64,000 nt of DNA from Promicromonospora umidemergens (GTDB lineage: Bacteria; Actinomycetota; Actinomycetes; Actinomycetales; Cellulomonadaceae): positions 1 through 64,000 of the forward strand of contig NZ_JAMTCT010000004.1 of NCBI RefSeq assembly GCF_024171995.1. The letters are read 5' to 3'. The notes below the pieces were generated by a model. That model searched no databases. It was not told where the DNA came from and was given only the letters and a program-made list of their open reading frames with translations. This document shows positions 3,502 through 21,256 of the stretch, in pieces. The first letter of the stretch is position 1. Each line of letters starts with the position of its first letter. The position numbers and the translations under genes are program-made.

Positions 3502-3810
3502 TCAGCGTCGACGCTGCCATCGCACGCTACGGGGACGACACGCCAATAGTGCGGTCAACAAGCCAGGAGCACTGACCGAGGGCGTTGTCCTGCCGGTGGT
3601 CTCGTCGCGTCGAGAGCGAACGACGTCGTCGGCGTAGGCATCCTCCAACGCCGGGCCGGGCGGGCAGAACTCATGGCGCGGCACGGCCAGCATCGCCTCC
3701 CAGATGGGAACGGGCAACTGCAATGGCGGGCGGCGAACGCCGGTGCGCAGTCCGTCGACGAGTTGCGCGCGCAGATCGCCGGCGCGGTCGGTCATCGGTG
3801 TGATCGTCAT
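3502..3810 (-). pseudogene. Protein-L-isoaspartate O-methyltransferase-like protein, truncated N-terminus
   Basis: This is a 102-residue frame. It carries an N-terminal helix MTDRAGDLRAQLVDGL, then LAVPRHEFCPPGPALEDAYA and VSAPGLLTALLA, matching the start of PCMT-type methyltransferases, including the variants associated with FxLD-type RiPP systems. PCMT proteins are 200-400 residues; here the SAM-binding GxGxG domain is missing and the frame ends in low-complexity Arg-rich residues. It is the last recognisable member of the minus-strand chain, so the original locus may have been cut at about 3500. Confidence 0.55.
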
Positions 3811-3848
3811 GCGGTTCCCCCTGCTGGTGGTAGGTCAGTTGCGGATGG

Positions 3849-4151
3849 TCAGAGATCGTCCAAGCCGGCCGGGACCGGCTGAGGGGACCGAGGCAGGGCG
3901 AGCTCATCGCCCGCCTCGCGTGGCACCAGATGCAGGTGCAGTTGGAAGACCGTCTGTTTGACTCCGGGTCCCTTACTAGTGATGACGCTCCACGCCCCTC
4001 CCCGGTCGCACGCAAGCTCGCTCGCGGCGGCCATCGCCAAGGCCTGCTCGGGGCCCTGCGCGGTGAAATCGACGACGTGCTCAGGCGCTGGCGGGTCGAT
4101 TCCGCCTTGTCCGCTGTACGCGGCGACGCCCTCCGGGCGCGGGACCCGCAT
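3849..4151 (-). CDS. HIT-like domain protein, possibly degenerate
   Basis: This is a 100-residue protein whose C-terminal part reads AWSVITSKGPGVKQTVFQLH followed by LHLVPREAGDEL, the arrangement at the C-terminal end of HIT-family nucleotide hydrolases. The family active site is H-x-H-x-H. Here the first histidine is glutamine (Q-L-H-L-H), so a standard HIT reaction is doubtful. The first half of the fold is not recognisable. It starts 3 bases after the preceding gene's stop, which suggests translational coupling. Alternatives are a truncated remnant or a diverged small protein. Confidence 0.5.
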   Translation of the reverse strand: MRVPRPEGVAAYSGQGGIDPPAPEHVVDFTAQGPEQALAMAAASELACDRGGAWSVITSKGPGVKQTVFQLHLHLVPREAGDELALPRSPQPVPAGLDDL

Positions 4152-4154
4152 CTC

Positions 4155-5120
4155 TCAGACCTCCGGCTCACGGAAAGCGGGCCTGTGAATGGCCTCGGCA
4201 GAGGCCTGCGGGGTCAGCCCGCCCCACGCCTCGTAACAGGTGCACATGCGCGAGCGCCAGCGCCAGGGTTCGAGGGCGTGCAACTTGGTCCGCAGCGGTT
4301 CGGCGTACGGGCTGACGGAGGTGGCTCCCCAGCGCACGTCAGGCAACTCTTCGGCGGCTCGTCGGTAGAGCTTGGTGCCGATCCCGAGCCCGGCGTAGTC
4401 CTGCCACTCGGGCGCCCGGTTCTGCGGGTCCTCGACCCGGTCAGGGCCGATCGAGGCAATGCCGTACGGCCTGGAGTACACCTTCCCCTCAACCTCGCCG
4501 GGGTGGTACATGAATTGCGCGCGCAAGCCGCTGGCCTTGTGCTGGACGATCAGCCACTGCTCGCCTGCCCGGTGGGACTGGACCTTGTTGAGCTCGGCCG
4601 GCCGGTGCTGCACCAGCAGCACGGGGTCGGCCGCTACGGCCTGACGGTGGGCAATCTCGACTCGGATGTACTCCTCGATCCCTGCCCGGTTCAGGCGCTT
4701 GGCCAGCGGCGGCAGATCGTCCACGACGTCGGCGAACCCGTCACGTACGCCGCGATGCTCCATGATGAACGCCACGACCTCGTCGAGAATCTCCAGCGTG
4801 CGGGGATGGAACGGGTTGCGCAGGGTCTGCTGGACGCTCTGGAACCGGTCCATGCTCGTCGTGATGTCCTCGGCGGCAAGCTCGTCCCACCGTGTGCGCG
4901 AGACCAGCTGGCAGTTGATCCACCGCTCGAACCGAGCCTGTTCTCGCTCGATCCAGGCCAGGGGCGCCGCGAACCACCGCATCCAGGCCAGGGGCGCCGC
5001 GAACCACCGCCGGCCGCCCAGCGCCTCGAGTGCCGCTTGCTCCTGGCGGGCGGCGGCCACCGCCTCGAGCACTGCTTGCTCGTCGCGCGGGCCGAGAATC
5101 TGCTCCAGGTCGGTCATCAT
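4155..5120 (-). CDS. Conserved-looking protein with GNAT-like C-terminal motif
   Basis: This is a 321-residue protein starting at 5120 behind GGAGGTAA. The N-terminal 60 residues are helical and hold a tandem repeat (RWFAAPLAWM then RWFAAPLAWI). The central part is unassigned. Near residue 245, YAGLGIGTKLYRRAAEELPD followed by a YAEPLRTKLHAL stretch recalls the CoA-binding Q/RxxGxG/A segment of GNAT acyltransferases, but no full domain could be traced, so the function is tentative. It is part of the minus-strand chain between the Cys-rich protein and the HIT-like protein. Confidence 0.55.
   Translation of the reverse strand: MMTDLEQILGPRDEQAVLEAVAAARQEQAALEALGGRRWFAAPLAWMRWFAAPLAWIEREQARFERWINCQLVSRTRWDELAAEDITTSMDRFQSVQQTLRNPFHPRTLEILDEVVAFIMEHRGVRDGFADVVDDLPPLAKRLNRAGIEEYIRVEIAHRQAVAADPVLLVQHRPAELNKVQSHRAGEQWLIVQHKASGLRAQFMYHPGEVEGKVYSRPYGIASIGPDRVEDPQNRAPEWQDYAGLGIGTKLYRRAAEELPDVRWGATSVSPYAEPLRTKLHALEPWRWRSRMCTCYEAWGGLTPQASAEAIHRPAFREPEV
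4951..5010. repeat. Perfect 30-bp tandem duplication inside the 4155-5120 gene
   Basis: Two adjacent identical 30-base units (4951-4980 and 4981-5010) encode the repeated RWFAAPLAW segment and keep the frame. Identity at the DNA level suggests a recent duplication. Confidence 0.9.
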
Positions 5121-5277
5121 CGGTTACCTCCAGATGGTGGGTTCATCGGACGGCAGCAGTGGTTCGCGCAGGTACTCGGCTCGAGACGCCGATCGGCAAC
5201 CGCTCGAAGCAAACCCTCTTGGCCGCGACGCAGTCAGGTCAGACGCCTCAGACCACCTGGCCAGGGCTTGTACTGGC

Positions 5278-5514
5278 TCAGAGCTGATTGACGGGTGGGC
5301 GGTCATGCGCAGGCAGGGGGTAGCACCATGCGCAGGTGTGTGGGTGCTCGCGGGCGGTCTGCTTCCGGATCGGGATCCCTGCCTGGCAGGTGTGCTTGCC
5401 CGCGCGGTGGTCCTGAGCGCAGCCCAGACACCACCCGACGCACGTGAGCCAGACGTGCGAGACGCACAGGCCATGCCACTGGGGCATCGTGGGCGGTTGG
5501 TCGTCGAACACCAT
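5278..5514 (-). CDS. Small cysteine-rich protein, possible zinc-binding
   Basis: This is a 78-residue frame from ATG 5514. It has seven cysteines in the arrangement C-x3-H, CVGWC-x2-C, a lone C, and CAWC, plus several histidines. This spacing suggests a zinc ribbon or treble-clef-like module, but no family was recognised. It lies between the HemC homologue (stop at 5589) and the 321-residue gene on the same strand. Because the locus contains modification-type enzymes, a peptide substrate role is conceivable but unsupported by a leader or core pattern. A GTG just upstream is an alternative start. Confidence 0.45.
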   Translation of the reverse strand: MVFDDQPPTMPQWHGLCVSHVWLTCVGWCLGCAQDHRAGKHTCQAGIPIRKQTAREHPHTCAWCYPLPAHDRPPVNQL

Positions 5515-5588
5515 TTGGGCACGTGAGAGTCCTGACTGTGTGGGCACGCACCGCGTCGCGCATGGCTTGTGAGGAGGTGCCTCAAAGA

Positions 5589-6524
5589 TCAGGGGTGCTG
5601 CGCAGCGTCGGTGATCACGTCGCGGGCTCCCTGCTTGACGAGGGCAAGGGCGACACTCATGCCCAGGTCGACCGGGTTGAAGGCGGCGGCCGACTCCGCG
5701 GTTGTCAGGACGGTCTTGCCGTCCAGGGAGTAGACGGCGCCGTGCAGCTGCAGCTCGTCGTCGACGTGGCTCGCCCAGCCGGCGATCGGGCTGTTGCAGT
5801 GCCCCTGTAGGACGTGCAGGAACATGCGCTCTGCGGCGGCCTCGCGCCATGTTGTCGGGTCGTTGAGCGGGGCCAGGACCTCGAGCGTGGCGTCGTCGTC
5901 CGCACGGCACTGCAGTGCCAGGATGCCCGCGCCGACCGGCGGGAGCATGACCTCGGGCTCGAAGGTCTCGGTGATGACGTCGGTCCGGCCGATGCGTTCC
6001 AGGCCGCTGACGGCCAGGATCGCCGCGTCGACCTCGCCGGCCGCGAGCTTCTCCAGGCGCCGGTTAGCGTTGCCGCGGAACAGCGTGAACTCGAGGTCGG
6101 GGCGAATGGCGGTGAGCTGGGCACGGCGACGCACCGAGGAGGTGCCGATCCGGGCCCTGGGCGGCAGCTCGGCCAGCGTCAGGCCCGCCGGGCTCACGAG
6201 GCAGTCGCGCACGTCGTCGCGCTCGAGGTAGCCGGCGATCGTCATCCCGGGTGGGAGGGGCTTCTCACCGGGCATGTCCTTCAGGCAGTGCACCGCGACG
6301 TCGGCGGCGCCCGCGGCCAGGACTGCGTCGACCTCGCGGACGAAGTTCTCCTTGCCCCCCAGGGCTGACAGGTGGCCGGTCCACCGGTCGGCCGTCGTCG
6401 TGACCGGGACGACCTCGACGTCGAGCTCGGGCGAGGTGTGGGCCAGGAGACCGCGGACGCGCTCGACCTGGACGCGGGCCATCGGCGAGGAGCGGGTCAC
6501 GATCCGCAGGACGGGGGAAGACAT
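5589..6524 (-). CDS. hemC: Hydroxymethylbilane synthase (porphobilinogen deaminase) homologue
   Basis: This is a 311-residue protein from ATG 6524, normal length for HemC, which polymerises four porphobilinogens into hydroxymethylbilane using a covalent dipyrromethane cofactor. Visible motifs in order are [18 protein letters not shown] (catalytic Asp83; the usual Ser is Cys), [36 protein letters not shown] and [11 protein letters not shown] with the cofactor cysteine at 243 (GGC becomes GHC). The active site therefore appears intact. It starts 5 bases after the methyltransferase stop and sits two genes from a deviant HemB homologue, away from any other haem gene, so a role in specialised metabolism is inferred. 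A diverged housekeeping copy is the alternative. Confidence 0.9.
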
Positions 6525-6529
6525 GGGGT

Positions 6530-7123
6530 TCACGGTATCCGCCGCGCCGGTGAGGTCTTGGCGGCCACGAGCAGCCCGCTGGCCCAGCCCATGGGCGTCG
6601 CGACCATGTCCGCGCGGGGCCATCCCGCCCAGAACTGGTCGACGCGCTCGGGGTGGTCCGCAGGCCAGGTGTCCTGCGGCAGCAGGTCGTCGACGACGTA
6701 CAAGCCGCCAGGGGTCAGGAGATCGATCAGGGTGTCGAGCTGGTCGAACTTGCCCGGCCGCCAGTCGACGAACGCCAGGTCGAACGGATCACCGTCGTAC
6801 TCGCGTAGCCACTCGCCGGCGTCGGCGCACACGAACTCGACCCGTGGGTCGTCGACGAACGTCACCGCCGCTGCCGTGTGGAAGAGAGGGTTGATCTCGA
6901 TGGTCGTCAGGCTCGCGCCGGCGTCCATCCCCGACAGCATCCAGGCGACACCGGCGCCGACCCCGGTACCGATCTCGAGGAAACGGCCGCGCGGCTTTGA
7001 GGCCACCAGGGTCGCCAGGAGTGTGCCGGTGAGGTCCTCGCACGACATGCGAAACCCGACCCGGGCGGCCGACTCCTGGACGACGGCGAGCATGTCGGGG
7101 CGGGTCAAAGGTGAGTCGTTCAT
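6530..7123 (-). CDS. Class I SAM-dependent O-methyltransferase
   Basis: This is a 197-residue protein with a Rossmann SAM site [16 protein letters not shown] (about residues 48-63), an acidic post-beta2 end (TTIEINPLF), the beta4 motif [13 protein letters not shown] and a [12 protein letters not shown] loop. The layout resembles catechol O-methyltransferase-type small-molecule enzymes. The ATG overlaps the stop of the HemB homologue (ATGA), indicating translational coupling, and the HemC homologue follows closely. It probably methylates an intermediate or product of this locus; the substrate is unknown. Confidence 0.8.
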
Positions 7124-8100
7124 GGCCGAGCTCCGATCTGCAGGGTGTGGGCGATCGCCGCGGCGGCGAACGAGAGCACGTGCCCGGCGCCCAGACGGAA
7201 CAGCATGCGGTGGTAGTCCATGGACACAGCGTCGGGCAGGGACTGCAGCGCGGCCCACTCCCCCGACGTCGAGTAAGCCACCACCGGGACCGTGGTCCGA
7301 GCCGCGAGCGCCGTGAGGGCGTCGGCGTTCGTCATGACGGGCTGGAGGGTGAGGGTGTCGGCGCCTTCGGCGAGCCATCGGTTGGCGCAGGCGACCGAGT
7401 CGGGTACGAGGCGGGCGGGGTCGATCTGCAGACCGCTGCGGCGGCCGGTGGCGGGCTGGGTGCCCATGACGTTCTTGAAGGGCTCGTACAAAGAGGAGTC
7501 GATGGCGATGTTCGGGTTGACTGAGACGTCGGGCCAGCCCTCGGAGTCCAGGGCCTGGCGGACGGCGCGGATGGAGCCATCGAGCATCGCGGTCGGGGAG
7601 ACCGCGTCGGCGCCGGCGCCGGCGTGCATGACGGCCATCCGGCACATGAGCTCGTAGGTGCCGGGGCGATCGATACGGCCGTCGTCGTGGCGCAGGACGC
7701 ATTCGTGGCTGGAGGTCCAGGAGCAGCCGCAGACCTCGGTGGTGACGGCCAGCTGCGGAGCGGTGGTCTTGATCGTCTCGATGGCACGGAGCATGCGGTT
7801 GTCGCGGGTGGTCGCGGCCGTTCCCCGCTGGTCGTGGTTGTGGCCGGTGACGAACAGCTTGACCCCGCCCAGGCCGAGGGCTGCGAGCTGGCGCACGTGG
7901 GCGCCGAGGCCAGGCAGGTCGACTTCGCCGGGTAGGGCGCCAGTCGCCTCGCCGTCGGGGCGTATCAGCAGGGGCGCGGACAGGCGGGCCGGTGCGAGCT
8001 CCTCCTGGTTGTACAGGCGGCGGATCGTTCCCCGGGCGCGGCCCGGGTTGATGCCCTCGGGCCGGTGCGGTCTGGCCTCATAGTCGGTGGTGTCGAGCAT
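7120..8100 (-). CDS. Porphobilinogen synthase (HemB) homologue lacking both Schiff-base lysines
   Basis: This is a 326-residue protein starting at ATG 8100 behind GAGGAGC. The fold is recognisable over the whole length: LGLGGVKLFVTG, TEVCGCSWTSSHEC, AGAGADAVSPTAMLDGSIRA, SSLYEPFKN and VPVVAYSTSGEW. The zinc triad Cys124, Cys126 and Cys134 is present. HemB condenses two 5-aminolevulinates through two Schiff-base lysines. The first (SAKYAS in typical enzymes) aligns here with NIAIDS, and the second (MVKPA) is LQPVM with Gln253. Both lysines are thus missing, so normal porphobilinogen synthesis is not expected. Pairing with HemC and a methyltransferase suggests a repurposed pyrrole-type or other condensation; this is inference. 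The symbol is left empty because function probably differs. Confidence 0.8.
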   Translation of the reverse strand: MLDTTDYEARPHRPEGINPGRARGTIRRLYNQEELAPARLSAPLLIRPDGEATGALPGEVDLPGLGAHVRQLAALGLGGVKLFVTGHNHDQRGTAATTRDNRMLRAIETIKTTAPQLAVTTEVCGCSWTSSHECVLRHDDGRIDRPGTYELMCRMAVMHAGAGADAVSPTAMLDGSIRAVRQALDSEGWPDVSVNPNIAIDSSLYEPFKNVMGTQPATGRRSGLQIDPARLVPDSVACANRWLAEGADTLTLQPVMTNADALTALAARTTVPVVAYSTSGEWAALQSLPDAVSMDYHRMLFRLGAGHVLSFAAAAIAHTLQIGARP

Positions 8101-8115
8101 CGGTGCTCCTCTTGG

Positions 8116-9249
8116 TCAGCGCGGGATGGCCTGCAGGGACTCCTGCAGGATGGTTGTGGCGTGGTCGGCGGTGGTGCGCAGGCGTGACAGGTTGTAGCCG
8201 GTCAGGGCGCCGCTGCGCAGTCCGGCTCTGATGATGTTGCGTTCGAGGGTGGCGATGTCCTTGTGGGACAGGCAGCCGGCCACGGTGCGCACGACTTCAC
8301 GGGCGGCATGGCCGTCGCCGACGGCGATCGCCTCTGCGGCCACCTGTCGCGCGATACTCGCGTACGGGTGGCCGGTGGCGTGGGCTAGCCGCGTCACCAT
8401 CACGCCGTACCGCGCCCGGTAGGCAGCGAGGTCGGTCGCCGGTGCGCTGTGCTGGAAGGTGGAGATCAGCGCGGCTGTGTCCGCCGGGCGATCGGCTGGT
8501 TCAGCGGCCAGCACGGCAAGGCACGAGGCGATCTCGGACTCCCATGGCAGGCTCGGCTGGGCCCCGGCCAGGTAGTGACGAGCCGCGACTGGCTCCCCGG
8601 CAACGAGGTGGGCCACGACCATGGCCTGACGTGTCTCGGTCAGGCGCGCACCCAGGCCGCCGTGGCGGGTGACCAGCGCGGCGGCCTCAGCCCGCTGGCC
8701 AGCCATGGTCAGAATCTTGACGGCGTCGGCCAGGAGCCGGCCCCAGGCCCACCCTTGCAGGAGCTCGTGCTCACCTGGATCGGCGTCGACGTGGTCCAGC
8801 GGCAGGTCGTAGCGGTCGATCGAGATGCTCGTGCCCGTTCGGACCGCATGCATCAGACGGGTCAGCCACGTCACCGCCCGGTCAGTGTGGCCAGCCAGGG
8901 CATGCAGACGCGCCAGGTCAGTGGCCGGCTCCAACATCGCGAGCGCCGCCGCGCCGCTCAGCAGGTCCCGGCCGGCGTACACCGCCAGGTGCTGCCGCAG
9001 GATCCGGTTCACCTCTTTGGGTCGCTGGCACTCCGATGCGAGCCCCGCGGCGCGAGTCAGGGCGTGCGCCGCGAAGGTGGCGCCCGCGTCCCCGAAGGGG
9101 ACATCGAGGACCTCGGATAGCTGGGTGACTCTCTCCTCCAGAGCCAGGCAGACCGGCCCGGGCCGAGCGATCAGCGGAAAGGACCGGCTTAGGCCAACCA
9201 CCGCCTCGGGGGCCAGGTCCCGCGCAGCTGCCCGCGTAGTCACGACCAC
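8116..9249 (-). CDS. Unassigned helical (TPR-like) protein
   Basis: This is a 377-residue protein from GTG 9249, preceded by GGAGGAGC and overlapping the end of the LanC-like gene by 10 bases. It is Ala/Leu/Arg-rich and almost entirely helical by composition, with repeated segments such as LARLHALAGHTDRAVTWLTR and GQRAEAAALVTRHGG, which suggests tandem helical repeats. No catalytic motif was seen. It may be a scaffold or regulatory partner for the locus. It lies between the LanC-like and HemB-like genes with short gaps, consistent with one transcript. Confidence 0.6.
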   Translation of the reverse strand: MVVTTRAAARDLAPEAVVGLSRSFPLIARPGPVCLALEERVTQLSEVLDVPFGDAGATFAAHALTRAAGLASECQRPKEVNRILRQHLAVYAGRDLLSGAAALAMLEPATDLARLHALAGHTDRAVTWLTRLMHAVRTGTSISIDRYDLPLDHVDADPGEHELLQGWAWGRLLADAVKILTMAGQRAEAAALVTRHGGLGARLTETRQAMVVAHLVAGEPVAARHYLAGAQPSLPWESEIASCLAVLAAEPADRPADTAALISTFQHSAPATDLAAYRARYGVMVTRLAHATGHPYASIARQVAAEAIAVGDGHAAREVVRTVAGCLSHKDIATLERNIIRAGLRSGALTGYNLSRLRTTADHATTILQESLQAIPR

Positions 9250-10571
9250 GGTGCGCTCCTCCGGTCCGCCGGGTAGGGGTTACCGGTGACCAGCAGGCAC
9301 GCATCCCACCACGAGGTTGGCGCAGTCCCGCGCCGCAGCGTCTGCGCCGCCAGCCGCAAGCCCGACTCCCCCGACCACAGATCGCCTGGTCCGCCAGCCG
9401 GCAGAGTCACGACCTGCGAGCGCAGCGCGTCCCCGACTGCAGACATACGGTGCTTGAGCCGGATCTCCGTCGGCCCGGTCGCGTCCGCGGCCGCGCGGTA
9501 GCCCGTCTGGTAGAGCCCGGCCAGGCCACCCCACAAGCCACCGCTGCTCAGCCGGCGCAGCTGCCGGTTAGTCAGGCATGCCAACATCGCCTCCTCAGCC
9601 AGCGCTCGCACCATGCGTGCCTCGTCTGCGTGGGGGTACCGGCTCGCGGCGAGCACGCTCGCGCCCATCTGCACAGCGCGAGCCATACCCGCCATCCGCG
9701 ACCACGACGGCAGTGCCTCCCCGACCCCACGACTGCCGACCAGGTGCCCTACCTGTACCTCGGCTGGTGTGACCCAACGCGGCCACCAGACGCTGTCCGG
9801 CCACTCGGCGCTCGCGGGCTGCTGCCAGCGAACGAACCAGTCGACCAGAGCCTTGATCGGCACGTGCAGGCTGTCGCGCGTGTAGCCGGCGCGTACACAG
9901 GCCACCAGGAACGCGAGCAGGCCGCCTGCACCGCTGGCCATGGTCATGTTCACGTGCCCGCCCGGCGTCGAGGAGTCTGGTCCCGGATTATGCGCGACGT
10001 ACCAGCCGGGCAGCCGCACCGCGTTGACCAGGACCGGCCTCGTCAAACTGACGACGTAGTCGATCACCCGCTGCATCAGCACGGTGCCAGGGGCACGGCG
10101 CAGCAGGATCACGCCGAGCCCGAGCATTCCCTCGAGCAGTCCGAACTCGGCCGCCGTCGGCGGCCGGCCGGCCTCGTACCGCGCCTCGGCCGCGGCCAGG
10201 CGCTGCTCGACGATCTGTCGCAGGTCCTCATCAAGATCCAGCTGCATCTCGCGAAACAGCCGCGGTTCCTGAGCCTGCCTTCTACGCGCCTCCGCAACCA
10301 GCTGTGCATCACGCAGGTCGAGGTACCCGTCGACGGCGGCCGTGTCCATGGCCAGCGCAGCAGCCGGCGCTCCATGGAACAAGCTCGCGGCGCCCGACAC
10401 GTCCGGGTCCCTGGTCAGTTCGTCGATGGCCATCTCGGCCTGGTCCCACCTGCCATCACCGGTCAAGGCAAGCTCGACGGCCAGGATCGCGGACCCGACG
10501 TCGCTCCCAGGCAAGTCCCCTCGCGCGCCCACCGCGGCGGGTGCGCTCGGCGCCGGTGCCGGCCTGGTCAT
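9240..10571 (-). CDS. LanC-like cyclase homologue without zinc ligands
   Basis: This is a 443-residue protein (start taken at ATG 10571; earlier in-frame GTGs exist). The repeating toroid motifs of lanthionine synthetase C are visible: SLFHGAPAAALA (63), GLLEGMLGLGVILL (144), MASGAGGLLAFL (211), SWSRMAGMARAVQMG (289), GGLWGGLAGLYQTG (344) and DLWSGESGLRLA. LanC cyclases use a zinc held by Cys, Cys and His in WCYG and CHG motifs, with a conserved HG in AHGxxG. Here these positions read WSRM, LWGG and ASG, so the metal site is gone. It is likely a non-catalytic binding or scaffold relative. No lanthipeptide dehydratase or clear precursor is present. Confidence 0.75.
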   Translation of the reverse strand: MTRPAPAPSAPAAVGARGDLPGSDVGSAILAVELALTGDGRWDQAEMAIDELTRDPDVSGAASLFHGAPAAALAMDTAAVDGYLDLRDAQLVAEARRRQAQEPRLFREMQLDLDEDLRQIVEQRLAAAEARYEAGRPPTAAEFGLLEGMLGLGVILLRRAPGTVLMQRVIDYVVSLTRPVLVNAVRLPGWYVAHNPGPDSSTPGGHVNMTMASGAGGLLAFLVACVRAGYTRDSLHVPIKALVDWFVRWQQPASAEWPDSVWWPRWVTPAEVQVGHLVGSRGVGEALPSWSRMAGMARAVQMGASVLAASRYPHADEARMVRALAEEAMLACLTNRQLRRLSSGGLWGGLAGLYQTGYRAAADATGPTEIRLKHRMSAVGDALRSQVVTLPAGGPGDLWSGESGLRLAAQTLRRGTAPTSWWDACLLVTGNPYPADRRSAPWS

Positions 10572-10665
10572 CTGGGGAAGCCTGGCCTTCCGTCGGGTTC
10601 GCTCGCGGATCACTGTGGGCTTCTTTCTCGTTCGTCGGTCCTGTAACTCGTCGTCTGGTCGGTGG

Positions 10666-10698
10666 TGCACACACGTAGCGGCCCCGCGCGTGTGTGCA
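10666..10698. terminator. Strong hairpin between two genes of the minus-strand chain
   Basis: TGCACACACG (10666-10675) pairs perfectly with CGTGTGTGCA (10689-10698) around a 13-base GC-rich loop. It lies between the stop of the 131-residue gene (10716) and the LanC-like start (10571). With no U-tract it may be a terminator, an attenuator or an operator. Confidence 0.45.
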
Positions 10699-10715
10699 AC
10701 CAGTGGGCGTATGCC

Positions 10716-11111
10716 CTAGGTCTTCCCTGGTCTGTGGAGTCGCGAGGTTGGTATGCCCTCGGCGCGTGCGCCGGAGATCTGGATGGCCAGTTCGTACCCC
10801 GCCACGACCTTGGTCGAAGCCATCACCCGTCGCCACCGGGCGCGTAGATCGAGGTCAGCTTTCCGATAGGCCAGGCCTGCCTCGTCGAGCGCCCGCTCGA
10901 CCAGGTTCATGCGCAGGCCCACTGCCGCTGGCAGCTCACACGTCCAGGCCGGGACCTGCCCCGGCCCGGACGTGACCCAGAGTTCGCCTGCTGCCAGGAC
11001 GGGACCCGCCCCGTGCCGGACGCGGACTGCGGCGGTCGCTTCCGGCGGCAGATGCTCGAGCGCGGCAGTGATCTGCGCGCTGAGCTCGCGCAGCTCTGTC
11101 GTGGTGGTCAT
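10716..11111 (-). CDS. Small protein of unknown function coupled to P450
   Basis: This is a 131-residue protein whose ATG overlaps the stop of the upstream P450 gene (ATGA at 11111), showing translational coupling. It begins MTTTTELRELSAQITAALEH, has one cysteine in a WTCELPAAVGLRM stretch, and ends with a basic helix and RPGKT. No family or membrane segment was recognised. It could be an accessory partner of the P450, since the coupling is tight and a strong hairpin follows it. Confidence 0.6.
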   Translation of the reverse strand: MTTTTELRELSAQITAALEHLPPEATAAVRVRHGAGPVLAAGELWVTSGPGQVPAWTCELPAAVGLRMNLVERALDEAGLAYRKADLDLRARWRRVMASTKVVAGYELAIQISGARAEGIPTSRLHRPGKT

Positions 11112-12451
11112 CACTGCGAGGCCCCCATCCTGGCCCAGGTCTCCTCGTACCCAGTCACAGGGTCGAAGCTCACCGGCAGGCTGGACGCGCTCCTGGCCCA
11201 CAGCGAGAGGCTGGTGCCGAGCTGGTCGGCCGGGACCGTGAGCGTGAGTCCGGGCATTCGGTGCAGGACGGCTTCGACGGAGGCCTTGACGATGATGCGA
11301 GAGATGCGCTGGGCGGGGCAGTGGTGAGGGCCGCTCGCTCCGAACGCGAGGGATGCACGGGAGGTACCGGACCAGACCGGGTCTACACCGCGGTGGACGG
11401 ACGCAGTCGCTTCGGCGGCGGCCGCGACGACCGCTTCGCCATCGTGTACAAAGCGTCCACCGATATCTACGTTGTTGTCGTTGAGAACGCTGCCGATCTC
11501 GATGTCGGCCGTGGCGAACCTCGCTGGGGTGTTCCATACCGGCGAGCTGTTGACCAGGACCGCGTCGAGGGCTTCATCGATACCGAGACGGCCGCCTCGC
11601 ACCCGCCCGTCGAAGTCGTTGTCGCTCAGCAGGTAGACCAGCGCCATGGTGACCCAGGCGACGGACATCTCGTGGCCCGCGGACTGGATCATCTGGGCTG
11701 TGTCCAGCAACTCCGTGTCCGTCAGACCCGTGCCCGTCCGCGGGTCGCGCCAGAGCACGATCGCTGACAGGAGGTCGTGACCCGGGTTCCTCTCACGTTC
11801 CCTGATCAGGGTTTCCAGCATGGTGTTCAGCCCGACGAATGCCGGGCCGGCGGCCGCAGTGTTGGAGAAGATGTCCCTGGCGTACTGCCCCATGACGCCG
11901 GCGTCATCAGCGCCAAGGCCGTACATCGCTGCCACCGCCAGTGACGGGACGAACTGGGTGTAGGTGGGGACCAGGTCCGCAGTGGTGGCGCCGTCCTTGA
12001 CGATGTGGGCGAGCATGCGGTCGCACACCCACTGCATGTCCCGTCGCAGCGCAGATTCGTCGACCTGGGCGAAAGCGTCGTCGACCACCGCGCGCCGTCG
12101 CGTGTGGTCCGCCCCGTCGCTGTAGTACGCGTTGTCGCGGTCGGAGAAGAACGCGTGCAGGCCCGTGCCGGGCTTCACCTGCCCGTTCTGGAACGCGCGC
12201 CACCGCTTAACCTCGCGAGTGAAGTTGTTCCGCTCGCGCACGACGCGCAAGGCATCACTCCAGTCCAGGGCGAGCCACGCCGGGACACCGTCGGACAGCT
12301 CGACCGCAGCCACCGAACCCCACTCAGCTCGCAACGCGGCGTACACGTTCTCTGGGTCGAGAGTGGCCGCGTACAGCGGCATCAGGCCCGTCAGGCTGTC
12401 GAGGCGGACGTCTCGAGGCCGCCTCACTGTGGTCAGCGCGTCGGTCAGCAC
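11111..12451 (-). CDS. Atypical cytochrome P450 lacking the ExxR arginine
   Basis: This is a 446-residue protein from GTG 12451. The P450 fold is supported by the I-helix SAGHEMSVAWV (about residue 256) and the haem loop FGASGPHHCPAQRISRIIV with the thiolate Cys near residue 375. The K-helix region reads IDEALDAVLVNSSPVWNTPA, so the nearly universal E-x-x-R motif appears as E-A-L-D, and the I-helix acid/Thr pair is also altered (AGHEMS). P450s without ExxR exist (for example CYP157 members) but are rare. It may be an unusual oxygenase or a non-oxidising partner of the neighbouring canonical P450. A hairpin separates the two P450 genes. Confidence 0.8.
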   Translation of the reverse strand: MLTDALTTVRRPRDVRLDSLTGLMPLYAATLDPENVYAALRAEWGSVAAVELSDGVPAWLALDWSDALRVVRERNNFTREVKRWRAFQNGQVKPGTGLHAFFSDRDNAYYSDGADHTRRRAVVDDAFAQVDESALRRDMQWVCDRMLAHIVKDGATTADLVPTYTQFVPSLAVAAMYGLGADDAGVMGQYARDIFSNTAAAGPAFVGLNTMLETLIRERERNPGHDLLSAIVLWRDPRTGTGLTDTELLDTAQMIQSAGHEMSVAWVTMALVYLLSDNDFDGRVRGGRLGIDEALDAVLVNSSPVWNTPARFATADIEIGSVLNDNNVDIGGRFVHDGEAVVAAAAEATASVHRGVDPVWSGTSRASLAFGASGPHHCPAQRISRIIVKASVEAVLHRMPGLTLTVPADQLGTSLSLWARSASSLPVSFDPVTGYEETWARMGASQ

Positions 12452-12482
12452 GTCGTGATCTCTTTCTGCTCGGTGAATGAAG

Positions 12483-12513
12483 AGCCGTCCCCCGCACGAC
12501 GCGAGGGACGGCT
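12483..12513. terminator. Hairpin between the two P450 genes
   Basis: AGCCGTCCC (12483-12491) and GGGACGGCT (12505-12513) form a perfect 9-bp stem with a 13-base loop, between the stop of the upstream P450 (12524) and the start of the next (12451). It may cause partial termination or protect processed mRNA ends. No U-tract follows on the minus strand. Confidence 0.5.
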
Positions 12514-12523
12514 GTGACGTGGG

Positions 12524-13774
12524 TCAGTCGTTCGGTTCGAGGGTCACCAGCAGACGGGCGTGGCCGTTGGTGATGATTCCGTCGTTCGCCGGGATCTCCG
12601 CGGGGTCCTCGACCAACGTGAGGCGGTACCGGCTGAACAAGGCGGGCAGCGCGATCTTCGCCTCCGCGATCGCCATCGCGGCACCGGGGCAGCGGTGAGG
12701 CCCGTACCCGAACCCGAGGTGGTCCTTCTTGGTGCGGGTCGGGTCGAACACATCGGGAGCTTCGTGAACCTTCGCATCCCGGCCAGCGCCCGCGAAGGAC
12801 ACCAGGAGCGGCGTGCCCGCGGGGATCTCGAACCCGGCGATCACGATGTCCTTGACGGGGAACCGCATCGGGACGACGTTCGCGGGAGACGAGTGGCGCA
12901 GGGCCTCGTCGATGATCGCTCCCCAGGCCGTCTCCGCGGCGTCCGAGCCGAGCTCCTCTGCGAGGGCTGCGGCAACGTACTGCGGGTGGGTGAGCAGGAG
13001 GAAGATGCACTGGTCCAGCAGATTGACCGTGGTCTCGTACCCGGCCACGATCAAGATCCTTACCACCTCAGCGATCTCCGTCGCCGTATACGTGTCGCCG
13101 TCCTCGTTGGCCTGGATCAGGGTGCTGGTCAGGCTGCCATCGGGGTTGGCGCGCTTGCGGGCGATGAGCTCGTCGATCGCGCCCAGCAGCCCAACGAACG
13201 CCGCGCCGAGCTCCTCGCGGCTGATGTTGGTGTCGAACAGGGCATCAGCCCCCGCCCGGATGACAGGGAACAGGTCCTGCTCGTCATCGACGTCGACGCC
13301 GAGCACCGCACCGATCGTCCTGATCGGTACCGGGAAGCAAAATTCCGCGCGCAGGTCCATGGGTTCGGCCTGGTGCCCGTCGTGCGGGCCGGGTGCGATC
13401 TCCGCCAGAGCTCCGGCCACGATCTCGTGAATCATCGGTTCGAGCTTGTCGACCTGGCGCTGGGTGAATGCCGGCGTCATCAGCTTCTTCAGCCGCCGGT
13501 GCTCCGCGCCATACGCACTGAACGGCCCAGCGTTGGTGACCCACGGAACCACCAGCGAGTCGGCCGGCACGTTTCCCGCACGCAGGTCCGGCCAGTGCGC
13601 AGCGGCGTCCCTCGACACGTCCGGGTGGGTCCCGATCTCCTTGATCGCGGCGTAGTCCGTGACCATGACAGCCCGCAGGCCGTCCGGCATCTCTACCCAG
13701 CCGACAGGACCCACGTTCTTGATGTCGGCGTAGATGTCAGCTGTGAGGACGTAGGGGGTCGTCTCGATCGTCAT
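12524..13774 (-). CDS. Cytochrome P450, canonical motifs
   Basis: This is a 416-residue soluble bacterial-type P450 from ATG 13774 behind TAGGAG. The I-helix oxygen-activation motif is AGYETT (about residue 245), the K-helix is EALR within IDEALRHSSPANVVPMRFP, and the haem loop is FGYGPHRCPGAAMA (Cys near 358). All three diagnostic motifs are intact, so it should be an active monooxygenase. No ferredoxin or reductase gene is nearby, so electron donors would come from the host. It probably oxidises an intermediate of this locus. Confidence 0.9.
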   Translation of the reverse strand: MTIETTPYVLTADIYADIKNVGPVGWVEMPDGLRAVMVTDYAAIKEIGTHPDVSRDAAAHWPDLRAGNVPADSLVVPWVTNAGPFSAYGAEHRRLKKLMTPAFTQRQVDKLEPMIHEIVAGALAEIAPGPHDGHQAEPMDLRAEFCFPVPIRTIGAVLGVDVDDEQDLFPVIRAGADALFDTNISREELGAAFVGLLGAIDELIARKRANPDGSLTSTLIQANEDGDTYTATEIAEVVRILIVAGYETTVNLLDQCIFLLLTHPQYVAAALAEELGSDAAETAWGAIIDEALRHSSPANVVPMRFPVKDIVIAGFEIPAGTPLLVSFAGAGRDAKVHEAPDVFDPTRTKKDHLGFGYGPHRCPGAAMAIAEAKIALPALFSRYRLTLVEDPAEIPANDGIITNGHARLLVTLEPND

Positions 13775-13829
13775 GTCGCTGCACTCCTAAAGATCGGCGG
13801 GAACTCTTCGAGCGGTGCTAGACAAGAGG

Positions 13830-14660
13830 TCACCGCACTGCGGGGACCGTTTCGGGCAGCAGCGAGCGCAGGACGGTGGCGGCGCCGTCCTCTTCGAGGG
13901 TGCCGGTGACGTCGTCGGCCGCTGCGAGGACCTCGGCGGGTGCGTGTCCCATCGCGACGCCGCGGCCTGCCCAGGTCAGCATCTCGATGTCGTTGATTCC
14001 GTCGCCGACGGCGATCGTGCGGCGCTCGTGCACGTCGAGCAGGATCCGGACAGCCTCCAGGGCGGTGGCCTTGGAGAGTTGGGGTGGTGTGATGTCGAGC
14101 CAGTCGCGGCCGTCGGGGTTCACGGTCACGCCGGTGGCCTGGAGCTTGTGGCGCAAGTTCGCGATGCCTGGAGATCGCAGGATCATTCTCGTGGTGGGCT
14201 GCTCGGCGACCTTTTCGACGTCGACGATCCGCTGGGCGCCGTTGACCTCGTACGGCGCGAACACGCGGGTCACGCGGTACCCGAGCCCGACTTCCTCGGC
14301 CGCGATCTGTACGCCTGGGTACGCGGACCTCGCGCGGCGGACCACCGGCAAGGGGTCGAAGGTCTGCACGTCGTGCAGCAGATACCCGCCGGGAGCCTGG
14401 AGATCCAGGCGAGCGGTCACCGCACCGTTGGACGCGACGGCCCAGCCCTCGGTCAGACCGAGCGAGCGTGCGACCGGGAGCACTCCGACCAGGGAGCGTC
14501 CCGTAGCCACAACCACATGGTGCCCAGCAGTGCGCACTTCGGCGACGGCGGCGCGTACGGCGTCCGAGATCTCCGTGGTGCCGGGGTCGGCGATGGTGCC
14601 GTCGATGTCTAGTGCGACCAGGGTCGCCTGGCGTCCGCGCAAGTCAAACGTCGTTGTCAT
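13830..14660 (-). CDS. HAD-superfamily (Cof-type) phosphatase
   Basis: From ATG 14660 the protein has 276 residues (a GTG at 14666 is an alternative). Motif I is LVALDIDGTIADPG near the N-terminus, motif II is VVATGRSL, a lysine lies in QLSKATALEAV, and motif IV is VGDGINDIEML. The long insert between motifs II and III fits the Cof/YidA cap type. Such enzymes hydrolyse small phosphate esters. The start lies inside the preceding small gene, indicating coupling in the same operon. The substrate is unknown; removal of a phosphate from a biosynthetic intermediate is plausible. Confidence 0.85.
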   Translation of the reverse strand: MTTTFDLRGRQATLVALDIDGTIADPGTTEISDAVRAAVAEVRTAGHHVVVATGRSLVGVLPVARSLGLTEGWAVASNGAVTARLDLQAPGGYLLHDVQTFDPLPVVRRARSAYPGVQIAAEEVGLGYRVTRVFAPYEVNGAQRIVDVEKVAEQPTTRMILRSPGIANLRHKLQATGVTVNPDGRDWLDITPPQLSKATALEAVRILLDVHERRTIAVGDGINDIEMLTWAGRGVAMGHAPAEVLAAADDVTGTLEEDGAATVLRSLLPETVPAVR

Positions 14661-15057
14661 GTCCACGTCCGGGGGTTGGGGGGATGCTCATGCCGGCGCG
14701 CCTGGCGCTGGCGGGGGAAGGGTCGTTGGCGAGCCGTCCTGCACGCCGGGGAACTGCGGGGTGGCTCCGGCCGATCACGACGCACACGGCGCCGTAGGGC
14801 TTGAGGTCATGTGTCACGCGGGCCTGGGCCTCGGCCATGCGTGCACCGGCGGCGATCAGCACGATCCGCGTACGGCAGGCCCGAACCGCCGCGACGACCT
14901 GGCTGATGGTGAGCGTGTCGCTCGGGTCGGCCAGGTCAGGTTCGAGAGCGAGGCCTTCGACGGCGGCATACGCGCTGAGGACGTTCCGCTGGTCATCGAG
15001 TGCCTGCTCGGTAGGGCCGGCCACGTATGCGAGAGCTGTCGGCCGAACGCCGCTCAC
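14644..15057 (-). CDS. Small unknown protein with resolvase-like fold hints
   Basis: The GTG at 15057 is chosen because it overlaps the preceding stop (GTGA) and starts right at the ordered part (TALAYVAGPTEQALDDQRN); an open frame extends to 15153. The 137-residue protein alternates beta and alpha elements, with VVAAVRACRTRIVLIAAGAR and GAVCVVIG, loosely resembling the N-terminal domain of serine resolvases but without a recognisable catalytic serine context. The C-terminal 35 residues are Pro/Arg-rich. It overlaps the HAD start. Confidence 0.5.
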   Translation of the reverse strand: MSGVRPTALAYVAGPTEQALDDQRNVLSAYAAVEGLALEPDLADPSDTLTISQVVAAVRACRTRIVLIAAGARMAEAQARVTHDLKPYGAVCVVIGRSHPAVPRRAGRLANDPSPASARRAGMSIPPTPGRGHDNDV

Positions 15058-15392
15058 GAGTTCATACCGAGTGACGCTGGGTGTGCGTACAGGACGCACC
15101 GAACACCGCGGCTCGCAGTCCTTGGGGTCTGCTTGGTAATCCAGCCGGACCACATCAAGGTGCCGGGACTGAGGCGGGAAGCGCGCGAGTGATCCGGGTC
15201 CAGCTTGTGCTGAGCGGCGAGCTGTCGAGCATCGACGATCGAAGCAGCGATGATCTCCAGCACGAGGTGCTCAGATGTGGCGCTGGCGAGGTCGCCCGGC
15301 TCCAGGCTCACGTTCATGTTGAGCACGCCGGGGTCACACCCGTAAGAGACGAAGTGCAGAGCCCCTGCGATGTCTGTCAGACGTACGGTCAT
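15054..15392 (-). CDS. Small protein of unknown function
   Basis: This is a 112-residue protein from ATG 15392, overlapping the stop of the first gene of the operon (ATGA). It starts MTVRLTDIAGALHFVSYGCD and includes HLVLEIIAASIVDARQLAAQ. No membrane helix or known motif was seen. Its position as the second gene of a tightly coupled operon with P450s and HAD suggests a role specific to this locus. Confidence 0.55.
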   Translation of the reverse strand: MTVRLTDIAGALHFVSYGCDPGVLNMNVSLEPGDLASATSEHLVLEIIAASIVDARQLAAQHKLDPDHSRASRLSPGTLMWSGWITKQTPRTASRGVRCVLYAHPASLGMNS

Positions 15393-15691
15393 GAGACAGC
15401 CGCCCCGCGGGGCCGGATTCCGCGCACATGGATCTCGCACTGCCCGGCTCCTGCCCAGGTCCCAGACCAGTCAGTCACCGCCGGCACCACAGACGTGTGC
15501 TCGATGAACGATGTCAGGCCAAGTGCCCTCGCGATGGCTTCGCCTTGCTCCAGGTGCGACGGCTGGATCGCGATGACCGCTCCGCTGGAGAACGTCATCG
15601 ACCCGATCCGCTCCTCGCCGACGACGTCGAGGATCTGACCCACAGCGGTGAGCACGTTGTTGAGGGATGGCCTCTCGAGTGTCTGCGTCAT
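15389..15691 (-). CDS. Small protein, first gene of the minus-strand operon
   Basis: This is a 100-residue protein starting at ATG 15691 behind GGGGAGA. It reads NVLTAVGQILDVVGEERIGS, then FSSGAVIAIQPSHLEQGEAI, and has two tryptophans near DWSGTWAGAG. No family was recognised. It is followed by a chain of overlapping genes, so it probably marks the start of the transcript. The promoter should lie in 15692-15938, where a 14-base sequence is duplicated. Confidence 0.6.
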   Translation of the reverse strand: MTQTLERPSLNNVLTAVGQILDVVGEERIGSMTFSSGAVIAIQPSHLEQGEAIARALGLTSFIEHTSVVPAVTDWSGTWAGAGQCEIHVRGIRPRGAAVS

Positions 15692-15783
15692 CTGTGTCTC
15701 CCCGTGCTGGCTGTACCCAGGGCCAGGGTCGGCCCGTGTCTTACAGACTCACGCAGGAGGGGGCACAAAAACCCGGTCGTCGA

Positions 15784-15873
15784 TGCAAATTTCTGCAGCG
15801 GCCTCAAATGCCAGCGACCAGGGCAAACACAGCGATTCGCGTCAGAAACTTGCTCCAGGTGCAAATTTCTGCA
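15784..15873. promoter_or_regulatory. Duplicated near-palindromic 14-mer in the divergent promoter region
   Basis: TGCAAATTTCTGCA occurs exactly at 15784-15797 and 15860-15873, 76 bases apart. Each copy has TGCA at both ends and an AT-rich centre in otherwise GC-rich DNA. They lie between the biosynthetic operon (minus) and the toxin-antitoxin/regulator operon (plus), so they are candidate operator sites for one of the downstream HTH proteins. Confidence 0.5.
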
Positions 15874-15896
15874 CGACAGCCAAGAGATACTCACCA

Positions 15897-15930
15897 AGAG
15901 GTATACCTCTGTAGGTACCGTTGGGTACCT
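15897..15930 (+). promoter_or_regulatory. Two palindromes upstream of the antitoxin, probable autoregulatory operator
   Basis: AGAGGTATACCTCT (15897-15910) is a perfect 14-bp palindrome. AGGTACC (15913-15919) and GGTACCT (15924-15930) form a perfect 7-bp inverted repeat with loop GTTG. They end 8 bases before the antitoxin ATG. RHH antitoxins bind such sites in their own promoters, so autoregulation is inferred. Confidence 0.65.
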
Positions 15931-15938
15931 TGTGCCCT

Positions 15939-16187
15939 ATGCCGCAGACGACGATCAAGGTCTCGCCCGCCGTGCACCGTGAGCTCAAGGCCTACGCCGA
16001 TGCCCACGGCGGCTTAGCGCTGGGACGCGCGGTCGAGACGCTGCTCGTCGCTGACCGGGAACGTCAGTTCTGGGCCGGAGTGAATACGCAGGTGCCGGAC
16101 GAGGAGTACCGGCAAGAGGTCCACAACGTCGTCGGACTAGTGGACGCCGAGGACCACATGTCGCGACTCGAGAGCAGAGAACAATGA
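15939..16187 (+). CDS. Ribbon-helix-helix antitoxin
   Basis: This is an 82-residue protein from ATG 15939. The N-terminal TTIKVSPAVHRELKAYADAH and GRAVETLLVADRERQFW show the strand-helix-helix pattern of MetJ/Arc-type antitoxins. The acidic C-terminal part (DEEYRQEV, VDAEDH) would wrap the toxin. An upstream GTG could extend it, but the ATG places the RHH strand at the very start as usual. Its TGA overlaps the ATG of the toxin gene. Two palindromes precede it, so it probably represses its own operon. Confidence 0.8.
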   Translation: MPQTTIKVSPAVHRELKAYADAHGGLALGRAVETLLVADRERQFWAGVNTQVPDEEYRQEVHNVVGLVDAEDHMSRLESREQ

Positions 16188-16567
16188 GGCACCGGGCCGA
16201 GCTGAACGACATTTACTGGGGCGACCGGTTGTGGGTAAGCAAGGATCCCGTGGGCGAGCTTGAGCAGGCCGGTGATCGGGCGTGGCTGGTGCTATCCCAC
16301 CCTGAGCAGCATCAGGCCATGGAGCTCGTGATCGCGGTGCCGTTGACCAGCGTCGACCGAGGCTGGAGAACCCATGTCCGGATGAATACAGACATCGATG
16401 GCGCGCCGGAAGTAGCGATGTGCGAACAGGTGCGCTCGATGCCTGTCCAATTTGTTCGCGGCGTGGATTCGGCGCCCTATTCCGACCGGCTCGTCGAGCA
16501 GATCCATACGGTTCTCAAGACGCTCACGGCCCCGCGCCGGTCAGCAATGCCAGACAGGGGAATCTGA
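16184..16567 (+). CDS. MazF/PemK-type toxin
   Basis: This is a 127-residue protein with the PemK/MazF fold: DIYWGDRLWVSKDP at the start, RAWLVLSHPEQHQAM, LVIAVPLTSVDRGWRTHV, a following basic/acidic strand region and EQVRSMPVQFVRGVD near the usual SxI/V position. MazF toxins are sequence-specific mRNA interferases neutralised by the cognate antitoxin. The start overlaps the antitoxin stop (ATGA), and its own stop overlaps the next start (TGATG), so it heads a longer coupled operon rather than a stand-alone pair. Confidence 0.85.
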   Translation: MRHRAELNDIYWGDRLWVSKDPVGELEQAGDRAWLVLSHPEQHQAMELVIAVPLTSVDRGWRTHVRMNTDIDGAPEVAMCEQVRSMPVQFVRGVDSAPYSDRLVEQIHTVLKTLTAPRRSAMPDRGI

Positions 16568-18138
16568 TGGCACGGAGCGGGAAGGCCGAGCGGGAACTGG
16601 TCCGCCGCCAACTGCTAGCCGACGGCGTGCCGTTCGCACAGATCGCTGTCGAGATGGGCCGCCACTTCGGGGTGCGGCCACGCGTGGCATGGCGGTATGC
16701 GCTGGGCTGGGAACAGTGGAAGGCCGTCCAGGAGTACCGCTCTGCGGACCCCACCTCCAAGATCGACGACTCCCGCATCTCGAAGTGGGAATCCTGGCCG
16801 TACGGTGGATCCCGCCCCAGCCCGGAGAACCTGGTGGGCCTGACGCTCGCGTTCGGTCACGGATGCAAGGTGAACGATCTCGTCGACGAAGATGACTTGC
16901 GCAGCTTCTCTCCGACCGTGCGCAAGCTCCTCGGTCTCGTAGAACACAGCCCGTCTCCCGCCGCGAGCGCCGAGGCTAGTGCCTTCGCCTCGGGCGCACC
17001 GTATCCGGGGTCAGACTGGAAGCGGGACATACCTGCGACGATGACCACGGTCACGGCGATGTGGGCTGCTGATACGTCGCCGTCGGCCGCCCAGGCGCCC
17101 TGGCTTGCTGCGACTGGTGACGCGGCGATGCTCCACTGGCGCTACGACCCGTCGGACGATCCTGCTCCCGGTAGAGAGTCACGACCGGTGCGCCCGTCTG
17201 ACATCTCCGGCATCCACGTGATGGCCGACGCGTTTGCTCAAACCGACCACAGGCTCGGAGGCGGGTACGCACGGTCGACCCTGCGGCACTACCTCCAGGA
17301 ATCGGTGAGCCCGTTGCTGCGTGCTCGACGCGACGAGGCCAGCCGGGATAATCTCTTGGCCGCTGTCGCGCGGCTGTGCGACATCGCAGGGTTCATGGCG
17401 TTCGACTCAGGGCAGCAGGGTGCCGGCCAGCGGTACTTCGTCCAGGCACTGCGTCTGGCGAAGGCGGCGGGAAACCAGGCTCTTGGGGCTCACATTCTTG
17501 GCGACATGACGATCCAGGCCGTGCACCTAGGCGAGGTCGGGCAAGCCACAGCACTGGCTGATGCTGCTGTCGAGGCTGCTCAGGATCTTGGATCGCCTCG
17601 AGTCTTGGCACGGTCGCTGGCGCTCTCGGCGCGTGCTTCTGCCAAGGCCGGCGACGGGGCGAGCGCGGACTCGGCGATGTTCGCGGCTGAGGTCGCGCTC
17701 GACGGCGAGTCGTCACGGGATGATCCGCCCTGGATCGCCTTCTTCACCGCAACGCAGCTGCAGACCGAGGCGCTCTACGCCGCGGTTGACCTAGGGCGCC
17801 TTGACCGCGTGGAAGAACTTGCGACGGCGGTCCTCGTCGACGATGTGGCGATGCAGCGCCGGCATGTCCTGGCAGCAGCAGCGGTCGCGAGCGCCTACGT
17901 CGCCGGCGCCGGTGCCGGTGACGTTGCGCGTGGTCGAGACCTGGACAGGTCGTTGGCCCTGCTCCACGCCGTCCTGCCGACGGTCGCCGCACTATCCAGC
18001 GTTCGCGGGGTTGCCGCGGTGGAGGGTGTTCGTCGGCGGGTGGCGGCCTTCGGCCGCGTTCCCGGACTTTCAGAGTTCGAGGAGCGGATTCGCACGGTCC
18101 TCGGAACCACGGTTTCTGACCCGCTGACGCTGGCATGA
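16567..18138 (+). CDS. XRE-like HTH regulator with TPR domain (paralogue 1)
   Basis: This is a 523-residue protein from ATG 16567. The N-terminal 110 residues carry RRQLLADGVPFAQIAVEMGR, WRYALGWEQWK and ISKWESWPYGGSRPSPENLV, the HTH module of streptomycete-type TPR regulators. Residues about 215-500 are helical repeats (TPR-like) that probably sense a small peptide or metabolite. It shares its N-terminal domain almost residue by residue with the protein at 19047-20354. It is coupled to the toxin upstream and, by ATGA overlap, to the kinase downstream. It is a candidate regulator of the divergent biosynthetic operon. Confidence 0.8.
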   Translation: MARSGKAERELVRRQLLADGVPFAQIAVEMGRHFGVRPRVAWRYALGWEQWKAVQEYRSADPTSKIDDSRISKWESWPYGGSRPSPENLVGLTLAFGHGCKVNDLVDEDDLRSFSPTVRKLLGLVEHSPSPAASAEASAFASGAPYPGSDWKRDIPATMTTVTAMWAADTSPSAAQAPWLAATGDAAMLHWRYDPSDDPAPGRESRPVRPSDISGIHVMADAFAQTDHRLGGGYARSTLRHYLQESVSPLLRARRDEASRDNLLAAVARLCDIAGFMAFDSGQQGAGQRYFVQALRLAKAAGNQALGAHILGDMTIQAVHLGEVGQATALADAAVEAAQDLGSPRVLARSLALSARASAKAGDGASADSAMFAAEVALDGESSRDDPPWIAFFTATQLQTEALYAAVDLGRLDRVEELATAVLVDDVAMQRRHVLAAAAVASAYVAGAGAGDVARGRDLDRSLALLHAVLPTVAALSSVRGVAAVEGVRRRVAAFGRVPGLSEFEERIRTVLGTTVSDPLTLA

Positions 18139-19034: not shown

Positions 19035-19046
19035 AGGGGGCCGATG

Positions 19047-21159: not shown

Positions 21160-21256
21160 TTAGGCTCCTCACCTGGAAAGGGTGCTGCCACAGGCTCCCA
21201 GACCTCTGGCGACGACGCCAGGCTCCCGTACTCGACCTCACAGCGAAGTTGCTGGG

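Follow-up and report, generated by a model that had tools for sequence, protein, structure and literature searches.

A porphobilinogen synthase homologue without Schiff-base lysines in a putative mobile oligopyrrole cassette of Promicromonospora umidemergens

In this study, we analysed a 64,000-nucleotide stretch of the Promicromonospora umidemergens genome (contig NZ_JAMTCT010000004.1, positions 1 to 64,000; hereafter the window) and concentrated on a minus-strand gene cluster between positions 3,502 and 15,691. The cluster contains HemB*, a homologue of porphobilinogen (PBG) synthase that lacks both Schiff-base lysines, together with an O-methyltransferase (OMT) and HemC*, a homologue of hydroxymethylbilane synthase. 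The locus is made up of two modules, namely module 1 (8100-5589, minus strand), which carries HemB*-OMT-HemC*, and module 2 (15691-8116), the front operon. With a probability of about 0.4, we propose that the trio may be a self-contained mobile cassette for a non-haem oligopyrrole, exchanged in behind a genus-specific operon.

HemB* and HemC*

PBG synthase is the textbook Schiff-base enzyme of haem synthesis. HemB* (7120..8100, minus strand) matched PF00490 (ALAD) at 6.7e-51 and reached 172 bits against the NCBIfam PBG synthase model, under its 297-bit cut-off. Aligned to the E. coli PBG synthase, the window protein has Ala and Gln at the lysine positions, and the first of these positions falls on a gap in the family alignment. 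A sequence-only reading of this DNA had proposed that HemB had lost its lysines, and the wider comparison agrees: neither lysine is present in any of 26 HemB* (window included), while both are present in all 59 canonical HemB (57 from the genome-search loci, the host's own and a second Rhizobium copy). The second position holds Gln in 13 HemB* and Glu in the other 13, a uniformity that suggests selection for some function. The metal-site cysteines Cys124, Cys126 and Cys134 are present in all 26, of which only Cys134 gives a bias-free conservation, because Cys124 and Cys126 lie within one of the two patterns used for scanning. Without either lysine, HemB* would be unable to take the Schiff-base route to the condensation of aminolevulinate. 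The predicted fold (predicted local distance difference test, pLDDT, 89.6) had 1b4e as its top Foldseek match (template modelling score, TM, 0.82), consistent with the TIM barrel of PBG synthase. In the HemB tree, for which the program warned of long branches, a single branch (100/100) set the HemB* proteins apart, and their two types formed separate branches (100/99 and 96/80). The nearest HemB* to that of the window came from Glycomyces, not from the canonical proteins of its own genus. Residue counts and tree omit two scanned loci, L102 (extracted as 1169 aa) and L103 (a 257-aa piece).

HemC* (5589..6524, minus strand; start inferred from relatives) matched Porphobil_deam at 5e-65 and hemC at 8.1e-95, and its 317 bits against the hemC model exceed the cut-off of 164. 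Among 28 HemC* (24 scanned loci, two plasmids, the window and the same-genus genome G008), the catalytic Asp and the dipyrromethane-cofactor Cys are present in every one, as had been noted earlier for the window gene, and the arginine set is complete except for Arg179 (27 of 28). Window residue 207 is Gln in 28/28 HemC* and Glu in 19/19 canonical proteins. Judged from these residues, HemC* has most likely kept the ability to polymerise PBG, which the host would provide. The host does possess a separate, ordinary hemB/hemC pair, about 1.2 kb apart on contig C11; together with the lysine-less HemB*, this favours the earlier view that the locus probably does not serve ordinary haem synthesis.

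Adjacency and mobile settings of the cassette

HemB* relatives were gathered as 25 loci from a motif scan of a species-genome collection, plus a phylum sample and plasmids. Because the scan demanded one of two motifs, its counts are too low to serve as a measure of prevalence; genes of the relatives were called by a simple script, and some may be missed or mis-started. HemC* adjoins HemB* in 24 of the 25 scanned loci, a count that includes L102 and L103. Twelve loci hold HemB*-OMT-HemC* in that order on a single strand, and in a further 12 HemC* adjoins HemB* with the OMT absent, HemC* lying on the opposite strand in 11 of these. The reading frames of HemB* and the OMT overlap in all 12 trio loci. 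The 396-genome phylum sample yielded a HemB* relative in one other genome (57% identity).

In the window, the OMT (6530..7123, minus strand; Methyltransf_24, 5.4e-9) overlaps HemB* by 4 bases. Its predicted fold (pLDDT 87.9) was best matched by 5x7f (TM 0.80), the nearest structures being class I catechol-type O-methyltransferases, and the fold and S-adenosylmethionine-binding sequence features of that class are present. OMT relatives were found in 21 genomes of a 295-genome Streptomyces sample, and the OMT alone was rejected as a cassette marker, since only 3 of the 21 are accompanied by HemB* and HemC* in the 1.5-kb flanks.

The surroundings of the cassette vary between loci and include several mobile settings. 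In Streptomyces chryseus the trio adjoins genes for holin, endolysin and tail proteins, a prophage setting, and in Streptomyces adelaidensis (L090) it is flanked by a 601-bp direct repeat of 96.5% identity (9091-9691 and 12566-13166). That repeat is part of a xylose-isomerase-like gene and is likely an insertion trace. The HemB*-HemC* pair is carried by the Streptomonospora plasmid phiM2 and by a Rhizobium plasmid typed as conjugative; these represent at least two HemB* records among the matches listed, of 655-661 matching records in the plasmid searches. Two scans of viral contigs gave no HemB* relative. Among phage records, 10 matched HemB* and 12 matched HemC*, all below 60% identity, and those listed look like ordinary bacterial hem genes. 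In Streptomyces sp. NBC_00249 (L084, 6744-9103), genes related to YcaO and TfuA lie directly upstream of the trio. Family scans of the neighbourhood covered the nearest called genes, 138 of 144 picked, those of L103 being left out. An apparent enrichment of DUF5753 regulators near the loci stays a lead, because eight genomes hold 22-62 each and several loci are kin.

Ten Streptomyces trios were compared upstream of the cassette for a palindrome, CCGAC-N5-GTCGG, with a TATCTACT-like box after it, close to the start codon. This site is exact in seven and has one mismatch in one, and in the remaining two (L084 and L088) it is no better than in shuffles (200 mononucleotide shuffles per site). A search of eight genomes found it as a single site, at the cassette, in seven and gave no match in the eighth. 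In the type without the OMT, the same palindrome lies upstream of HemC* (exact in 5/12, one mismatch in 5/12) and was not found upstream of HemB*.

The cassette boundary in same-genus genomes

The same-genus genome G003 matches window positions 8083-21228 at 87.8% DNA identity over 13.2 kb. The match ends at 8083..8120 (no strand assigned), where the two genomes share the GAGGAGCACCGATG ribosome site and the HemB* start codon. Beyond this point, G003 carries an epimerase, a thymidylate-synthase-like protein, a carbamoyltransferase, an unmatched protein, a methyltransferase and a kinase-family protein, and its genome has one HemB and one HemC match. Another genome of the comparison, G005, has radical-SAM, thymidylate-kinase and aldo/keto-reductase genes between its LanC-like and TPR-type genes. 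Given these other enzyme genes in G003 and G005, the position seems to be an exchangeable one that the trio occupies as one enzyme set among several, and comparison of the genomes identifies the meeting point of the two modules in the window as a cassette boundary. The two modules may nevertheless work together, as HemB* is placed at the front operon's own ribosome site.

The sequence-only reading had treated the HemB/HemC and LanC/P450 genes as a single co-inherited pathway, which these comparisons do not support. Homologues of the window LanC-like, TPR-type, HAD and P450 proteins were found in 0/25 HemB* loci (E<=1e-3; flanks up to 10 kb per side, less in some), and G003 has the LanC/P450 operon with other enzymes in place of HemB*-OMT-HemC*. 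The co-occurrence by which that reading was to be judged holds for the HemB*/HemC* pair and, within these flanks, not for the LanC-like and P450 genes.

Gene content of the front operon and flanks

From 15691 to 5589, neighbouring genes of the minus-strand chain overlap or nearly touch, and GC content by codon position is largely coding-like. Thirteen genes were accepted (p15389, p15054, p14644, HAD, two P450s, p10716, LanC-like, TPR-type, HemB*, OMT, HemC* and p4155). Thus the packed chain of about fourteen genes described earlier is largely confirmed, its left end (5124-5585 and 3502-4151) being weaker; the family names given then (HemB-like, HemC-like, OMT, LanC-like, P450, HAD) agree with our hidden Markov model searches. 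All genes described below as part of the chain lie on the minus strand.

The chain opens with three small uncharacterised proteins, p15389 (15389..15691), p15054 (15054..15392) and p14644 (14644..15153; no family match), for which the composition signal is weak and which have G003 counterparts at 96%, 98% and 88% identity, the last over 147 aa; p15389 also has a 38% identical counterpart on the host's own contig C30. An HAD-IIB phosphatase family protein follows (13830..14666; PF08282, Hydrolase_3, 1.7e-39), 80% identical in G003 and 52-55% in the own contigs C35 and C30. The first cytochrome P450 (12524..13774) matched PF00067 at 7.6e-33 and is 91% identical in G003. The second (11111..12451; 90% in G003) gave no PF00067 match at E<=1, and its NCBIfam P450 matches, the best at 2e-16, fall below the cut-offs. 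Next come p10716 (10716..11111; start inferred), a small uncharacterised protein 73% identical in G003 and 36% in C30, and the LanC-like protein (9240..10670; PF05147, LANC_like, 5.4e-6). The latter has SWSR and LWGG in place of the SWCYG and LCHG motifs of LanC, which we take to be zinc ligands; the motifs are kept in 9 of 14 proteins and absent in the window and four relatives (L179, L077, L180 and L182). The front operon ends with a helical TPR-type protein (8116..9249) without a Pfam match at E<=1, 61% identical in G003 and 31-36% in other loci of the genus.

Contig C30 carries homologues of p15389, the HAD protein, p10716, the LanC-like and the TPR-type protein in identical order, and has in addition an FxLD-type peptide and a LanB-size gene of 885 residues. 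FxLD-type precursors were located on C35 and C30 (L078, 7591-7785; L110, 12554-12748) near LanB-size, LanC-like and TPR-type genes, and both loci are, from their gene content, apparently intact lanthipeptide clusters. A motif search for FxLD precursors that recovered those of L078, L110 and L107 gave, for window positions 1-24000, just a 39-aa frame at 3555-3674, in the remnant region. No lantibiotic dehydratase model was matched among the scanned proteins of window 3502-20354, and no LanB-size gene was called between 1 and 20 kb.

Downstream of HemC*, a coding signature was looked for by composition in 5124-5585 and none was seen. The region 3502-4151 looks like remnants: 3502..3810 (minus strand) matches positions 1-75 of 394 of the FxLD-system methyltransferase model TIGR04364 (E 5.4e-9; 35.6 bits against a cut-off of 320), and 3849-4151 contains a short frame with an HLHLVP stretch that we take to resemble the HIT-protein motif. 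Between them and the non-coding-like stretch lies p4155 (4155..5120, minus strand), an uncharacterised protein of coding composition without a counterpart in the 25 HemB* loci. Because 5124-5585 is non-coding-like and 3502-4151 remnant-like, the gene chain probably ends at HemC*, and p4155 probably stands outside both modules. On the other flank, we observed a PemK/MazF-family toxin-like gene (16184-16567; PF02452, 2.3e-10), whose G003 counterpart is adjoined by a small gene, two NsdA-family TPR regulators (16420-18138 and 19044-20354; NF053720, over the cut-off) with an APH-type kinase gene (18135-19034) between them, and an 888-residue protein (21257-23923) with sub-cut-off matches to primase and TraA-relaxase/RecD-like models, possibly of a mobile element.

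Discussion

A possible route can be outlined for the proposed cassette. The host's ordinary HemB would supply PBG, and HemC* would string PBG units on its dipyrromethane cofactor. HemB* could use the cysteine (metal-type) site that it retains, along with its acid-binding residues, to act on either PBG or the pyrrole chain as it grows, and the OMT may cap a hydroxyl or carboxyl group, so that a methylated oligopyrrole would be the simplest product. The front-operon enzymes (HAD, two P450s, the zinc-less LanC-like protein and the TPR-type protein) may process or carry it. In a broader and more tentative form, the pathway might be mobile and separately regulated. A PBG-synthase scaffold that has given up Schiff-base chemistry would, with its own HemC as partner, convert PBG or bilane in a new reaction that probably depends on a metal. 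The pathway would travel among actinomycetes on a prophage, on plasmids and in swap-in operon slots, and in Rhizobium it would take the form of the HemB*-HemC* pair.

Several results weigh against such a cassette. The OMT is absent from 12 of the 25 loci, and 18 of the 21 Streptomyces OMT relatives (L139 and 17 others among L133-L152, 46-50% identity) have neither HemB* nor HemC* in their 1.5-kb flanks. One scanned locus, L103, has HemB* only, without HemC*; conversely, G008 encodes a HemC* 85% identical to that of the window (L153, 1048-1968) without HemB* or OMT adjoining, and its genome has a single HemB match. In a quick HemC tree, 12 of 14 HemC* of the second type fell among the canonical half, and a shared origin of HemC* as a whole is thus not established. 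No transporter or other shared neighbour appeared among the families listed (the best 25 of 64 and of 61). In addition, we infer the cassette's substrate, reaction and product, and any cooperation with the front operon, from genes and predicted structures.

Other explanations were weighed on the same evidence. The front operon and HemB*-OMT-HemC* might together build one product, in which a pyrrole is joined to, or modifies, a peptide or small molecule. HemB* does use the operon's ribosome site, the G003 slot holds another enzyme set as if the operon worked with interchangeable partners, and the trio behind YcaO/TfuA-related genes in Streptomyces sp. NBC_00249 offers another peptide-modifying setting; nevertheless, the lack of front-operon homologues in the scanned flanks, the lost LanC zinc motifs and the failure to see an FxLD-type precursor in this setting or a LanB-type gene in window 1-24000 make such an integrated pathway unlikely. 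Lost lysines on a fold predicted to be kept would also suit a non-catalytic HemB* that adjusts the supply of PBG or the oligomerisation of host or cassette enzymes, next to a HemC* acting as an extra hydroxymethylbilane synthase, which looks intact and persists alone in G008. Uniform replacement by Gln or Glu and the conservation of Cys134 suggest a working site instead, and the OMT of 12 loci would be left unexplained, so we regard this as rather improbable.

The phage lysis and tail genes in S. chryseus, the two plasmids, the repeat in S. adelaidensis and the unrelated neighbours could point to a fitness or defence trait related to phages or plasmids, with a pyrrole product that shields the host. 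A PADLOC search of nine window proteins gave one match, the OMT, partial to the mad2 model (E 5.8e-14), which reads as a general methyltransferase match; the viral-contig scans were negative and a phage or plasmid setting was demonstrated for a minority of loci, and we give this explanation little credence. An ordinary second copy of haem genes would fit a HemC* that passes the hemC cut-off, yet with the host's own pair, the missing lysines and a closest HemB* in Glycomyces it is very improbable.

The enzyme families involved are already known. Searching an open literature collection, beyond which further work may exist, we found in the texts it offered no description of the HemB* branch or of this gene combination, in line with the earlier statement that no described pathway was known to have this combination. 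A conserved branch that lacks both catalytic lysines, keeps the cysteine triad and stands beside HemC points to pyrrole chemistry new to assignment, and two enzymes with one methyltransferase are few enough for direct reconstitution. Furthermore, the sharp changeover at a start codon illustrates how whole enzyme cassettes can be replaced in actinomycetes while the operon in front of them stays fixed.

Comparison with known systems

The front operon resembles the FxLD-type class I lanthipeptide clusters on the host's own contigs C30 and C35 in its LanC-like and TPR-type genes, and on C30 the HAD gene and two small genes are shared as well, with their order preserved. Unlike them, the window has no LanB-type gene, no precursor in place and no LanC zinc motifs, and it adds two P450s. 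Specialised tetrapyrrole pathways, such as that of tolyporphin, carry extra hem genes, and in both cases extra hem-type genes would serve a natural product; tolyporphin-type pathways, however, have a functional HemB and later hem genes, whereas the window has a lysine-less HemB* with HemC* as the sole further hem-type enzyme. With PBG synthase (HemB, PF00490), HemB* shares whole-length homology, a predicted TIM-barrel fold and the cysteine triad, but it differs in the loss of both Schiff-base lysines and in scoring below the NCBIfam equivalog cut-off. HemC* is closer to its canonical counterpart, hydroxymethylbilane synthase, with the catalytic Asp, cofactor Cys and Arg set kept and a score over the hemC cut-off, and it is set apart by its pairing with HemB* and by the Glu-to-Gln change at window residue 207.

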